A stretch of 64,000 bases of DNA from Bacteroidia bacterium (GTDB taxonomy: Bacteria; Bacteroidota; Bacteroidia; J057): NCBI GenBank assembly GCA_030430575.1, contig JAUIKF010000014.1, positions 1 to 64,000 of the forward strand. The letters are read 5' to 3'. Position 1 is the stretch's first letter. Each line of letters starts with the position of its first letter. Of the stretch, positions 10,387 through 39,864 are shown one piece after another. Made by a program: the position numbers and the translations under genes. Under the pieces are notes generated by a model. That model ran no database searches, was not told the origin of the DNA, and saw nothing but the letters and a program-made list of their open reading frames with translations.

Positions 10387-10618
10387 GGGGCCGCTTCGCT
10401 GCGAGACCGTTCGTCCTGCGGACTCACTACGAGAGGCGAGACCGCTCGCCTTTCAGGCTCGCTACGAGACAAGAGACAAGAAAAGTGCCTTTAGTCTCGG
10501 AGCGAGGCGAGTCTTCGAGCCGAGCGGTCTCGCAGTGAGTGCCGAAGGCGCGAACGATCTCGCAGTGAGGGCTTCGCCCGAACGGTCTCGCAGCGAGCCC
10601 GAAGGGCGAGCGGTCTCA
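10387..10618. repeat. Large modular inverted repeat, GACCGCTCG family, copy 1
   Basis: The left arm has three units of the type GACCGYTCG-hairpin-CTCRCTACGA. The centre is AGACAAGAGACAAG...TTTAGTCTC. The right arm has four reverse-complement units ending GGTCTCA at 10612-10618. Here the unit junction word is TACGA/TGCGA (TCGCAG on the other strand) rather than the CTGTCA of copies 2-4, so units look homogenised within a copy. Internal hairpins include GCC-TTTCA-GGC at 10448-10458 and GGGCTTCGCCC in the right arm. Its last TCA is the reverse complement of the DUF1800 stop codon. Confidence 0.9.
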
Positions 10619-35740: not shown

Positions 35741-35794
35741 GGTTGTGAGGGTTAGTTAGGATAAAAGATGCTAATTATTTTTAACAAAAAAATC

Positions 35795-35859
35795 ATTGTT
35801 AAGTTTTGGCAATAAAAATATTGTTAACTAAATTTGTGTTGACAAAAAAAATATTGTTA
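35795..35859 (+). promoter_or_regulatory. Three ATTGTTA direct repeats upstream of the NTPase pair
   Basis: ATTGTTAA occurs at 35795-35802 and 35820-35827, and ATTGTTA at 35853-35859, the last overlapping the start codon. Each is preceded by an A-rich run. The region is very AT-rich and lies between divergent genes, so it is likely to hold the promoter and binding sites for a regulator. No known motif is recognised. Confidence 0.45.
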
Positions 35860-37031
35860 TGAAAATTACTGTAGGACACCCAGCCCGAAAAGGTGCCTTT
35901 TTTCCAAGAGATCTGATTATCAACAAAATTTACCGACGACTCGACTCTGGTGCAAATATATTCCTTTCTGCGCCAAGACGCGTTGGAAAAACGTCGATAA
36001 TGGAATATTTGGCAGATAATCCAAGGGAAGGGTATCACTTTATCTATGTGATTACGGAATCTGTCGATCATATTGAAGATTATTACAAAAAGCTCTTAGA
36101 AGAACTGTTGAGCAGTGATGTGATAGAAAAGCTATCAACTCAATCAGAAAAGACCCAAAAAGCAATTATTGGCGTTTTTGACCGAATAAAAACAATCGGC
36201 ATTCCAGGCATCAAATTAGAACTGAATGAGCGAGAAGAGGCGACTTATCAGAAGGAATTTGAGCGATTACTTCCAAAACTAGAAACTCAAGGAAGCCAAA
36301 TAGTGATTATGGTGGACGAGTATCCCCAAACGATCAAAAATATTTTTGATAAAGATGGACAATCAGCCGCCAATCATTTTTTGAAACTGCACCGAGAGCA
36401 GCGTCATCAAACGAGTGGAAATGTGCAGTTTATTTACACCGGTTCTATTGGATTGCCTATCGTTGTGGAAAAGGTTGGCTCTGAAGAAGTGATCAATGAC
36501 CTCAATGTTGTAGAAGTACCGCCTTTATCAATTGATGATGCAAAAAAAATGGCGATTCTATTGCTTGAGCATCAAAAAGTACCTTATGACCCTGCCGCTA
36601 TAGATTTTTTGCTTCAAAAAATACAATGGCTAATCCCCTTCCACATTCAGCTCGCCATTCAAGAAATGGTCGATGTCTATGAAACGCGAGACGGAGAAAT
36701 AGACATAAAAGCAGTAGAACAGGCATTTGAGCAAATGTGTCATCGAAGAAATGACATCTACTTTAAAAGCTATTATAAGCGCCTTAGGGCTGCTTTTGAA
36801 GGCGCAGAATATGATTTTGTTATTGATCTCCTTAACAAATTGTCTGTTCTGAATACCCTCTCTAAAAAGGAAGTAAGGGAAATTTCCATCAATCAACAAC
36901 TCGAAAATCCTCGTCAGCAATTGTCCTCCCTCATATTTGATGGCTATATTTTCTGGGAAGAATCTTCTGAGAGCTACCGCTTTACCTCTCCCGTCCTGCA
37001 ACTTTGGTGGAAGAAATATATCGCATCCTAA
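35859..37031 (+). CDS. P-loop NTPase (STAND-like), first gene of the pair
   Basis: 390 residues. Walker A APRRVGKTS is at about 38-46 and Walker B IVIMVDEYP at about 148-156. VQFIYTGSIGLP provides a sensor-like segment, and a helical lid and winged-helix region follow (EFVIDLLNKLSVLNTLSKKEVREI, YIFWEESSESYRFTSPVLQLWWKKYI). This is the layout of ATPases of the AAA-16/DUF4062-like group often found in defence or signalling loci. It is AT-rich compared with neighbours. It ends 10 bp before the second NTPase gene, so the two form an operon. Confidence 0.83.
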   Translation: MKITVGHPARKGAFFPRDLIINKIYRRLDSGANIFLSAPRRVGKTSIMEYLADNPREGYHFIYVITESVDHIEDYYKKLLEELLSSDVIEKLSTQSEKTQKAIIGVFDRIKTIGIPGIKLELNEREEATYQKEFERLLPKLETQGSQIVIMVDEYPQTIKNIFDKDGQSAANHFLKLHREQRHQTSGNVQFIYTGSIGLPIVVEKVGSEEVINDLNVVEVPPLSIDDAKKMAILLLEHQKVPYDPAAIDFLLQKIQWLIPFHIQLAIQEMVDVYETRDGEIDIKAVEQAFEQMCHRRNDIYFKSYYKRLRAAFEGAEYDFVIDLLNKLSVLNTLSKKEVREISINQQLENPRQQLSSLIFDGYIFWEESSESYRFTSPVLQLWWKKYIAS

Positions 37032-37041
37032 GACATCAAAT

Positions 37042-39864
37042 ATGGCAAAACGACAAGAGTTGGTGGCGAATCTCTACAACCCCCACCACCAAAATAAACA
37101 ACAACTCATAGATCGCTTTGTGGTTCGCCAAAAGCGATTCAAGTCCCTGTTCAAAGATATTCGGGAAGCTTCTATGGAGGTTCCTGAGCAGCATATGGTC
37201 ATTGTGGGACAGCGCGGGATGGGGAAAACCTCTTTGCTGCTGCGCCTGAGTTATGCCATTGAAGATGAGCCTTCCTTGAAGGATTGGCTAGTACCGATTG
37301 TGTTTAATGAGGAGCAATATAGCATTGGCGGCCTTTTTGGCTTGTGGGAGGAAACCGCAAAGCATCTGGAGGATAAACTGGCTGCTTTTGAAGGATTATT
37401 TGACAAAATGGATGCTTTGTACCAAGATGATCTGGATCGGTATGGAGATACCTGTTTTGCGCTCTTGACAGAAGCATTGCATGCTGAGGGCAAAAAACTG
37501 GTGCTATTTATTGACAATTTGGGTGAATTGTTCCAAAAATTTTCCAAAAAGGAAAGCCAACGACTACGCGAAATTTTGACGACCTCAGCAGACATCCGCA
37601 TCATTGGCGCTTCTTCGACAATGATTGAAAGCTTTTTCCAATATGATAAGCCGTTTTATGAGTTTTTTAAGGAAATAAGGCTGGAAGGATTGAATAAGGA
37701 GGAAGCTCAGAAGCTATTATTGGAACTGGGAGAATACTATCAAAAAGCGGTCATTAAGGAGATCATCGAACATGATCCTGGGCGTGTGGAGGCACTTAGG
37801 CGCCTGACAGGTGGGGTCATCCGAACGATGATTTTGCTATTTGAGATTTTTGTGGATGATAAGGATGGCGAGGCATTTGGAGATTTGGAGAAAATATTGG
37901 ATGTCATCACTCCGCTTTATAAACATCGAATGGATGACCTTTCTCGTCAGCAACAGCAGATTGTACATGCCATCGCTATCCACTGGGACGGCATTAGCAC
38001 AAAAGAAATAGTTCGAAAAACCCGCCTCGAAAGTAAAAAAATCTCTGCACAACTTAGCCAACTTTGCGACAACGATATCATTGTCAAAATCCCAACAGGG
38101 ACCAAAAATCACCTCTACCAACTCAAAGAGCGCTTTTTCAACGTCTGGTACCTCATGCGCAATGGCCGCAAATACGATAAGCAGCGAGTGGTCTGGCTGA
38201 CGCGATTTTTTGAGACGTGGTGTAAAGAGGAAGACTTTCAACGGGTGGTTCACCAGTATATTTCCACCTTAAAAATTGGCAAATATGCGTCGGATGATTC
38301 TGCTTTTTTGATGAGTACAGCCTTGGCCAATTCTAATTTGATTAGTCAGGAATTGCAGGAAAAGTTGCTTAACACAACAAAAAACTATCTACAAAATAAC
38401 GAATCTGATTTAGCGGAAAAATTGTCTAAGTCTGATAAGGCTTTGTATGAGGAAGCAGTTGGCATATTAGAGGAAGATTCCTCTAAAGCATTAAGTCTTT
38501 TGGAGCAGATAAATGATAAGGACGAGAAGACTTATGTGTTGATGGGATTGATTTGGGAGTGTGTGAAGGAGGATGAAGAGATGGCTGAGGAGTATTACAA
38601 ATTAGCGGAGAAGCAAGGGGATGAATTAATAAACCAGATAAAACATTTAGCAGAAGAGAAAAAAGAAGGGTTTAATCCTTTGAATTTAATTTTTCAAGAA
38701 GATTTGAAATATAAAAACAGTTCAATTCTCTGTCGCCTAGGATTAATCTGTGAGCAATTATTTTTGGAAGGTAAAAGCATGCTATTTTTCTTAGAAGTTG
38801 CTAGTCTTGAACTTTTTGACTCAGAGATTCGCGAAGCTTTAGAAATTAGTTCATTTAAGATTCTTCAAAAGCTTATTTTAGATAAAAGATATGCCTTTCT
38901 TGTTAATGAGGTGACACAACATATTGAATTAGATAAATTTCTTAAAGCAATATTAACAATTCCTCACTCCCCAGAATTTGTTGATAAATTATCTCCAGAT
39001 CAGCTTGAAAATTTTGAGGCTGGGATTAATATGTTTCTTGCTACAAATTACGCAGTTAAGAAAGATTATGATAGTGCAAAGCAACATTTTGAATTGGCTT
39101 CCCAAAAAGGAATTAGAGATGCGGATATAGATTTGGCTCAAATATATGTTATTAATAATAAATTAGATAAAGCGAAAGAATTATTGCGAAAGGTGTCGGA
39201 GGCGGATTTTCCCAATGCTTCTTATAAACTAGCATTACTACTAGAAAAAAGCCCAGACGAAAATGAGCGGATTGAAGCTAAGAGGTATTTTGAAAAAGCA
39301 TTGAAAGGCGGAATTATTGAAGCAGGAGTAAGGTTGGGGAATATATATTTAGCCAATAATGAGTTAGGGCAAGCAAAAAAGTATTTTGTTGAATATAAGG
39401 ACACTAATCTAATAGCGAAATTGGGCTTAGCAATAGTGCTTATGTATAAAGGGGAAAATAAAGAGGAAAGCCTGCAATTAATAGAGCAATTTATTTCAGG
39501 CCTAAACCAATTGGATCTCTTTCCTAAATTATATAAATTTTATGCCCATATTTTTCTTTGGAATGAGAAGTACCCCAAAGCATTCACAATAGCTGATAAA
39601 TTCATTTATAATGGAGAAAAAATAAAACCCTTCCTCCTCCTCCTCCTCGCCAAACGCCAATTCTCCTACCTACACAATTTCTTCACAGGCCCAAAAGGCC
39701 AAGCCCACCACACCAAAGACCGCTATAAGCCGATCTGGTATGCGCTGATGCATTATATGCGGGAAGAACACCCAATGGAGTATCTCAAGATGGGACCTGA
39801 GTTGAAGGAGACGGTAGAGGAAGTCATTGCGCAGGTGGAGGAGATGGCGGTGAAATATGCCTAA
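37042..39864 (+). CDS. Large P-loop NTPase with winged helix and Sel1/TPR-like repeat tail
   Basis: About 940 residues. Walker A GQRGMGKTS is at about 56-64 and Walker B LVLFIDN at about 153-159. A MarR-like winged helix is visible at about 330-390 (IHWDGISTKEIVRKTRLESKKISAQLSQLCDNDII). From about 500 onward the protein is a helical solenoid with Sel1/TPR signatures (KDEKTYVLMGLIWECVKEDEEMAEEYYKLAEKQGD, ASYKLALLLEKS, IEAGVRLGNIYLANNELGQAKKYF). The ATG at 37042 is chosen because the longer frame overlaps the first NTPase. The tail is the most AT-rich coding DNA here. It is a sensor-like architecture of unknown function. Confidence 0.85.
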   Translation: MAKRQELVANLYNPHHQNKQQLIDRFVVRQKRFKSLFKDIREASMEVPEQHMVIVGQRGMGKTSLLLRLSYAIEDEPSLKDWLVPIVFNEEQYSIGGLFGLWEETAKHLEDKLAAFEGLFDKMDALYQDDLDRYGDTCFALLTEALHAEGKKLVLFIDNLGELFQKFSKKESQRLREILTTSADIRIIGASSTMIESFFQYDKPFYEFFKEIRLEGLNKEEAQKLLLELGEYYQKAVIKEIIEHDPGRVEALRRLTGGVIRTMILLFEIFVDDKDGEAFGDLEKILDVITPLYKHRMDDLSRQQQQIVHAIAIHWDGISTKEIVRKTRLESKKISAQLSQLCDNDIIVKIPTGTKNHLYQLKERFFNVWYLMRNGRKYDKQRVVWLTRFFETWCKEEDFQRVVHQYISTLKIGKYASDDSAFLMSTALANSNLISQELQEKLLNTTKNYLQNNESDLAEKLSKSDKALYEEAVGILEEDSSKALSLLEQINDKDEKTYVLMGLIWECVKEDEEMAEEYYKLAEKQGDELINQIKHLAEEKKEGFNPLNLIFQEDLKYKNSSILCRLGLICEQLFLEGKSMLFFLEVASLELFDSEIREALEISSFKILQKLILDKRYAFLVNEVTQHIELDKFLKAILTIPHSPEFVDKLSPDQLENFEAGINMFLATNYAVKKDYDSAKQHFELASQKGIRDADIDLAQIYVINNKLDKAKELLRKVSEADFPNASYKLALLLEKSPDENERIEAKRYFEKALKGGIIEAGVRLGNIYLANNELGQAKKYFVEYKDTNLIAKLGLAIVLMYKGENKEESLQLIEQFISGLNQLDLFPKLYKFYAHIFLWNEKYPKAFTIADKFIYNGEKIKPFLLLLLAKRQFSYLHNFFTGPKGQAHHTKDRYKPIWYALMHYMREEHPMEYLKMGPELKETVEEVIAQVEEMAVKYA

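Follow-up and report, generated by a model that had tools for sequence, protein, structure and literature searches.

A co-evolving pair of NOD-type ATPase genes with palindrome arrays at its promoter: a possible mobile sensor switch in Bacteroidia

The DNA considered here, called the window, is a stretch of 64,000 nucleotides (nt) that makes up positions 1 to 64,000 of contig JAUIKF010000014.1 in the assembly GCA_030430575.1 of a Bacteroidia bacterium, and the nearest named relatives of its genome, according to a contig scan, are Saprospiraceae metagenome-assembled genomes. It carries two adjacent ATPase genes, A (35859..37031, an open reading frame (ORF) of 390 amino acids (aa)) and B (37042..39864, 940 aa from its ATG), which, like all features located below in the window, lie on the plus strand. 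A and B are an obligate, co-evolving pair. As judged from where relatives are found the pair is also mobile, and it may work as an autoregulated sensor switch made from two ATPases with NOD-type cores, possibly directed against phage; to this reading as a whole we give somewhat less than an even chance.

The genes are separated by 10 nt, counted from the stop codon of A to the ATG of B, and their GC contents are 41% and 38%, in surroundings that are mostly at 45-50%. The flanking genes, encoding a DUF697-SHOCT protein upstream and a LytTR response regulator downstream, are unrelated to the pair and lie on the opposite strand. The initial annotation of this DNA had described the locus in the same terms, as an AT-rich pair of P-loop NTPase genes standing alone between unrelated genes, and the ORFs and NTPase family matches agree with it.

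That the two genes belong together, as was also proposed there, is seen when the locus is compared with its relatives, which were gathered from searches of relatives, class and phylum, from one genome-contig scan and from plasmids. Both genes were found in 34 loci, and in every one of these A is followed, on its own strand, by B as the next gene of the module. The distance between them is within 160 nt in 32 loci, with frequent overlap; the two exceptions are a locus with a spacing of 584 nt (L095) and one where an IS3-type transposase separates the genes (L113). A was found alone in three more loci, two of which are at contig ends or have gaps while the third has a degenerate B, and B was found alone at two plasmid loci. 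The tree of A and the tree of the B core agree, with a mirror-tree correlation of 0.96 for 30 pairs (Mantel p 1e-4). An asymmetry in the Walker B motif is retained as well: the Asp-Glu of A (36315..36320) is DE in all 34 A proteins, while the Asp-Asn of B (37513..37518) is [D/E]N in 33 of 34 B proteins, the exception being a short B on a Segatella plasmid.

The protein encoded by A is of the ATPase_2/SSO1545 type, with a Walker A motif, APRRVGKTS, at 35970..35996. It has both marks of the ATPase_2 family, namely a match to PF01637 (E 1.9e-8) whose 34.8 bits exceed the Pfam gathering cut-off of 33.2, and the SSO1545 fold; a PDB sequence search with A gave nothing useful. Its AlphaFold model (mean predicted local distance difference test score, pLDDT, of 89) shows the ATPase core followed by a winged helix and matches over its whole length the archaeal ATPases 2QEN (Z 26.6) and 2FNA (Z 25.1), with ORC2, the NODs of plant NLR and CED-4 (Z 17-20) and TnsC (Z 15-16) at lower rank. 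FxGR-type motifs, relevant to the hhGRExE test for STAND proteins, are present in many A proteins. The model thus predicts for A a NOD-type core, consisting of nucleotide-binding domain (NBD), helical domain (HD) and winged helix (WH) as in STAND/NLR and ORC ATPases, and nothing beyond it: the C-terminal repeat sensor is absent. Unlike the archaeal ATPase_2/SSO1545 and PAB2304 proteins (2FNA, 2QEN), with which it shares the fold and the PF01637 match, A is paired with a STAND-TPR partner and has palindrome arrays upstream.

B is predicted to join a core of the same NBD-HD-WH kind, again as in STAND/NLR and ORC ATPases, to a tail of TPR/Sel1 repeats. The core covers about residues 1-375 (37042..38166), begins as an NTPase about 20 residues from the N-terminus, contains the Walker A motif GQRGMGKTS (37207..37233) and ends with RFFNVWYLMR in the winged helix. 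The helical-repeat (TPR/Sel1) sensor region occupies about residues 436-880 (38347..39681), and after the repeats comes a conserved C-terminal tail (39712..39861) with the motif ..PELKETVEEVIAQVEEM.., which is retained in many members. Full-length members range from 537 to 1144 aa and differ by the number of repeats. The profile matches of B are AAA_16 (5e-7), TPR_19 (4e-7) and a weak Sel1, and a PDB sequence search with B returned mainly TPR/Sel1 proteins. In its AlphaFold model (mean pLDDT 75, about 85 in the core and lower in the repeats) a winged helix follows the ATPase core and the C-terminal half is made of helical repeats; Foldseek ranks the STAND-TPR protein 6MFV first (E 3.8e-9), further structure matches are 2QEN (21.0) and NRC4 and CED-4 (Z 19-20), and the NODs of NLR/CED-4 align with the models of both A and B over the full length of the core (Z 17-20). 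The initial annotation had likewise seen in B a STAND-like sensor NTPase with winged helix and repeat tail; it gave the winged helix to B only, and the winged helix and NOD core of A were overlooked. The winged helix of B is basic, with an isoelectric point of 9.6-9.7, and among relatives the median is 9.6 for B versus 5.7 for A. Most B proteins have F(V/I)xR without the Gly, and many have GGxPR-like motifs, where the B of the window instead has GGVIRT. In one relative (L026:7800-10148) the tandem Sel1/TPR units of B are almost identical to one another, which suggests that the repeats have expanded recently.

Three palindromes of 22 bp, here taken as putative operators, occupy the promoter region of A: S1, TTAACAA-N8-TTGTTAA (35781..35802), S2, TTGGCAA-N8-TTGTTAA (35806..35827), and S3, TTGACAA-N8-TTGTTAT (35839..35860), of which the last extends over the start codon. 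Their right halves are the ATTGTTA copies at 35795, 35820 and 35853 that had been noted earlier as simple repeats, the last of them overlapping the ATG at 35859. In the whole window ATTGTTA occurs nine times, which is the expected number, but the clustering is not due to chance: when the local AT-rich stretch was shuffled 5000 times, no shuffle contained three copies. S2 lies between the -33 and -7 boxes of a Bacteroidetes-type promoter match, TTTG-N20-TAAATTTG (35805..35836). This promoter pattern is weak alone, with three matches in the window versus 1.4 expected, and the call is strengthened because relatives show the same box arrangement; the second palindrome is nested between the boxes in at least four of them, L026, L061, L062 and L095. 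In most relatives the pair is preceded by an array of the same kind, made of two or three palindromes that are commonly spaced by 27-28 bp. When palindromy and repetition are combined in one operator score, which was devised after the sequences had been viewed and was applied alike to the controls, the mean z is 3.44 for 30 A-B promoters, related and hence non-independent loci among them, whereas the upstream regions of 120 controls average 0.15 (p 4e-14). Among the fetched loci the sites are almost confined to the A-B promoter, and in the window's own genome of 8.16 Mb the pattern occurs at five places, three in the promoter of A and two inside ORFs.

The half-sites are specific to clades, being TTGnCAA in Bacteroidia, CCAACA or GAAT-ATTC in two Chlorobi-like groups, and AACTAT on Moraxella plasmids. 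The two Chlorobi-like A-B subfamilies share their host genera but differ in operator type. The type of operator, in other words, follows the A-B subfamily and not the host genus, so that the factor that binds the arrays is most likely carried by the module. One A-B pair has putative operator arrays on both of its sides (L105:6420-6456 and 10477-10528). B-only plasmid genes of Alphaproteobacteria (L118, L117) have upstream sites like TTGCCAACA...TGTTGGCAA, which resemble the operator of Chlorobi-like group 1. Palindromes about 30 bp apart also precede solitary ATPase_2-like genes of about 390 aa in Bacteroidota (L040-L058, a series in which some loci overlap each other; examples are L051, L046 and L047), and this suggests a wider family of self-regulating ATPases.

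The distribution of the pair is sporadic, with A present at E<=1e-20 in 27 of 395 Bacteroidota genomes. That it is mobile is seen from its neighbours, which differ at most sites, and from the B core: the B core on Moraxella osloensis plasmids is 43% identical to that of the window, across phyla. Wide vertical conservation in one syntenic place, which the initial annotation had named as the pattern that would speak against its view, is not what was found, nor was the pair identified as a known housekeeping complex, the other such outcome, and the nearest thing to a shared site is a gatB neighbour common to four Chlorobi-like loci. A genome of the same genus (G001) has a distant relative at another position (A 21%, B core 32% identity), where the pair ends a TerD-TerY-PP2C-kinase gene row; this association with TerY-P/Ter stress modules is seen at that one locus, the pair being otherwise independent of Ter genes. 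Among phage genomes and viral contigs there were no relatives of the pair.

On plasmids the pair lies near defence genes. One Moraxella plasmid pair has Qat and kinase genes close by and, behind it, genes for dUTPase, PRTase-CE, ORC-CDC6-like, CARF and methylase proteins. On another Moraxella plasmid, pSKB0120-2, the end of B is overlapped by the start of a PD-Lambda-4_A/Avs4-like gene, which makes its cotranscription with B likely, and a NACHT-like gene comes next. B-only relatives are near Pycsar, AbiE and TIR/JAMM genes in Sphingobium and near cyclase and ThiF genes in Agrobacterium. Two Moraxella plasmids have nearly the same A and B core, with a synonymous divergence (dS) of 0.25 in the NOD of B, while dS is saturated in the B sensor and the downstream genes differ. 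As judged from these substitutions, the difference in B is due to recombination near the boundary between core and sensor, that is, to sensor exchange; a test for positive selection acting on the sensor was decided for recombination instead, the synonymous sites being saturated.

Four relatives have an interrupted gene A (L113:6734-9030, L116:6933-8969, L027:9400-10573 and L064:7139-8301) beside a B that is still a long ORF, the interruptions being an IS3-type transposase behind a shortened A, an IS5 insertion, an in-frame TAG and a frameshift; in L119 and L120 it is B, not A, that is short or degenerate. Such interruptions could be loss, a cost of A, or assembly error. In four Chlorobi-like loci a gene of about 440 aa with a weak match to the A model adjoins the pair (L098:5963-7288, L102:11303-12628, L103:7338-8663 and L106:8616-9935), and four Clp_N/AAA_lid_9 proteins met in the neighbour scan are probably the products of these genes. 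Behind the pair of one Chlorobi-like genome (L109:481-6027) lie contractile-tail or injection-type genes, with a tail-sheath-like protein judged by eye.

The proposed switch can be pictured as follows. A and B would form one complex, a signalling module of two proteins, in which B is the sensor, with a TPR/Sel1 array that takes the trigger and a nucleotide pocket that acts as a slow switch, and A is the partner with a Walker B motif predicted to be catalytically complete. In the resting state one or both proteins would sit on the palindrome array through the winged helix and repress their own promoter. The trigger, for which a product of a phage or mobile element or another cellular stress is the most plausible candidate, would change nucleotide state and assembly, repression would be lifted and an output would follow. 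A defence role is possible, and its plausibility comes from the setting on plasmids and from how the pair is distributed.

Several observations weigh against this proposal. An effector domain at one end, which STANDs generally though not universally have, was not found in A or B in Pfam, NCBIfam or PADLOC, as had been the impression from the sequence at the outset, and there is no third gene common to the A-B loci. Chromosomal loci lie mostly among housekeeping genes with the pair usually alone, and a defence island is usually not supported for them, since the 116 neighbours scanned were mostly housekeeping with a few restriction or defence-like matches; of the defence or accessory setting first suggested for the pair, the accessory DNA and the plasmid defence genes stand, and the Bacteroidota chromosomes are usually outside defence islands. 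Sensor exchange is a single case, and one of recombination rather than positive selection. An Asn that follows the Walker B Asp may be ordinary in bacterial STANDs and need not mean inactivity. To the late design of the operator score must be added that arrays occur also upstream of 38% of the A-only relatives (10 of 26 with z>2) and of one of the two B-only genes; the binder is therefore not pinned to A or to B, and the idea that the winged helix of B alone is responsible for the arrays is weakened by those upstream of A-only relatives.

The same arrays can be accommodated in other ways. The pair could be an ordinary transcription regulator of STAND type, like MalT or PH0952: it would respond to some metabolite or stress by controlling its operon and any genes that lie behind it, without a defence role of its own. 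The operator-like arrays at its own promoter and the likely cotranscribed gene at the end of B on pSKB0120-2 are in its favour. In PH0952/MalT-type STANDs (6MFV), as in B, an NBD-HD-WH NOD is followed by a helical arm and a TPR sensor. PH0952, the protein of structure 6MFV, is predicted to be a transcription factor and carries an additional DNA-binding domain at its N-terminus (PMC6468293); this helix-turn-helix (HTH) effector is missing from B, which outside the NOD lacks any effector or HTH domain at either terminus and nearly always has a second NOD ATPase alongside. When it is considered further that most chromosomal loci lack an obvious target gene behind B, that the window's own genome holds no other good sites and that sporadic, plasmid-borne spread is unusual for a metabolic regulator, such a regulator becomes rather unlikely. 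If the palindromes were instead RNA hairpins (attenuators) or sites for a host regulator, the pair would be an ordinary accessory ATPase with no special role. AT-rich palindromes could indeed fold as hairpins, and single A-like ATPases are common in the class, but the leader RNA folds no better than its shuffles (z -0.07), S1 and S2 are upstream of the predicted transcription start, and the sites track the A-B clade rather than the host genus, all of which makes this explanation quite improbable.

Alternatively, the array could be the DNA substrate on which a remodelling or initiator complex like ORC/Cdc6 or TnsC assembles, with no part in transcription control. Repeated palindromes adjoin the gene, TnsC is among the matches of A, both proteins have the AAA+ fold plus winged helix that serves as the structural test for Orc1/Cdc6, and both cores match archaeal Orc1/Cdc6, itself a pair of related AAA+ winged-helix proteins whose DNA-bound heterodimer, 2QBY, is included among the matches. 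The curated family TIGR02928 gives 17 bits for B, versus a cut-off of 181, and none for A; B, unlike Orc1/Cdc6, has a long repeat sensor, and the sites are in the operon's own promoter, one palindrome lying between the promoter boxes in several relatives. With no transposase, element end or origin gene accompanying the pair, and solo chromosomal copies requiring no origin, an initiator is improbable. A single-polypeptide anti-phage STAND of the Avs (AVAST) type would demand an unrecognised effector in A or B. Avs, in which an N-terminal effector is fused on, likewise combines a STAND-like NTPase with a large, TPR-like sensor, and the pair is found beside defence systems on plasmids, adjoining an Avs4/PD-Lambda-4-like gene on one of them; unlike Avs, it consists of two proteins, neither of which matches any Avs model in PADLOC at E<=1, and it has little room for an effector, with B starting so close to its NTPase core and A being NBD-HD-WH only. 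We consider this very improbable.

Matches of A or B to PDC-S01, mad and Csa3 in PADLOC and NCBIfam were weak and none was convincing. The libraries used held no family corresponding to a paired, effector-less, array-bearing module, nor was such a module described in the papers found by searches of the open-access literature. Known, then, are the STAND/ATPase_2 folds and the TPR sensors; the novelty would lie in their paired, effector-less and array-bearing combination.

The mobile, autoregulated two-ATPase switch could be given a more far-reaching form, which we regard as doubtful: an undescribed mobile family of immune type, where a sensor NOD and a partner NOD ATPase, with no fused effector and in a logic like that of paired plant NLRs, would also repress themselves in a sequence-specific way, each module using private palindrome arrays that change along with it. 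If the proposed switch is right, two-protein NOD/STAND sensing would be widespread in bacteria and missing from current defence libraries, and sensor and catalytically complete ATPase would be separate proteins. From the clade-specific palindromes it could be predicted what DNA a given variant binds, and they may be used for finding further members. They also raise the question whether the winged helices of STANDs, usually seen as regulatory, bind DNA in A or B.

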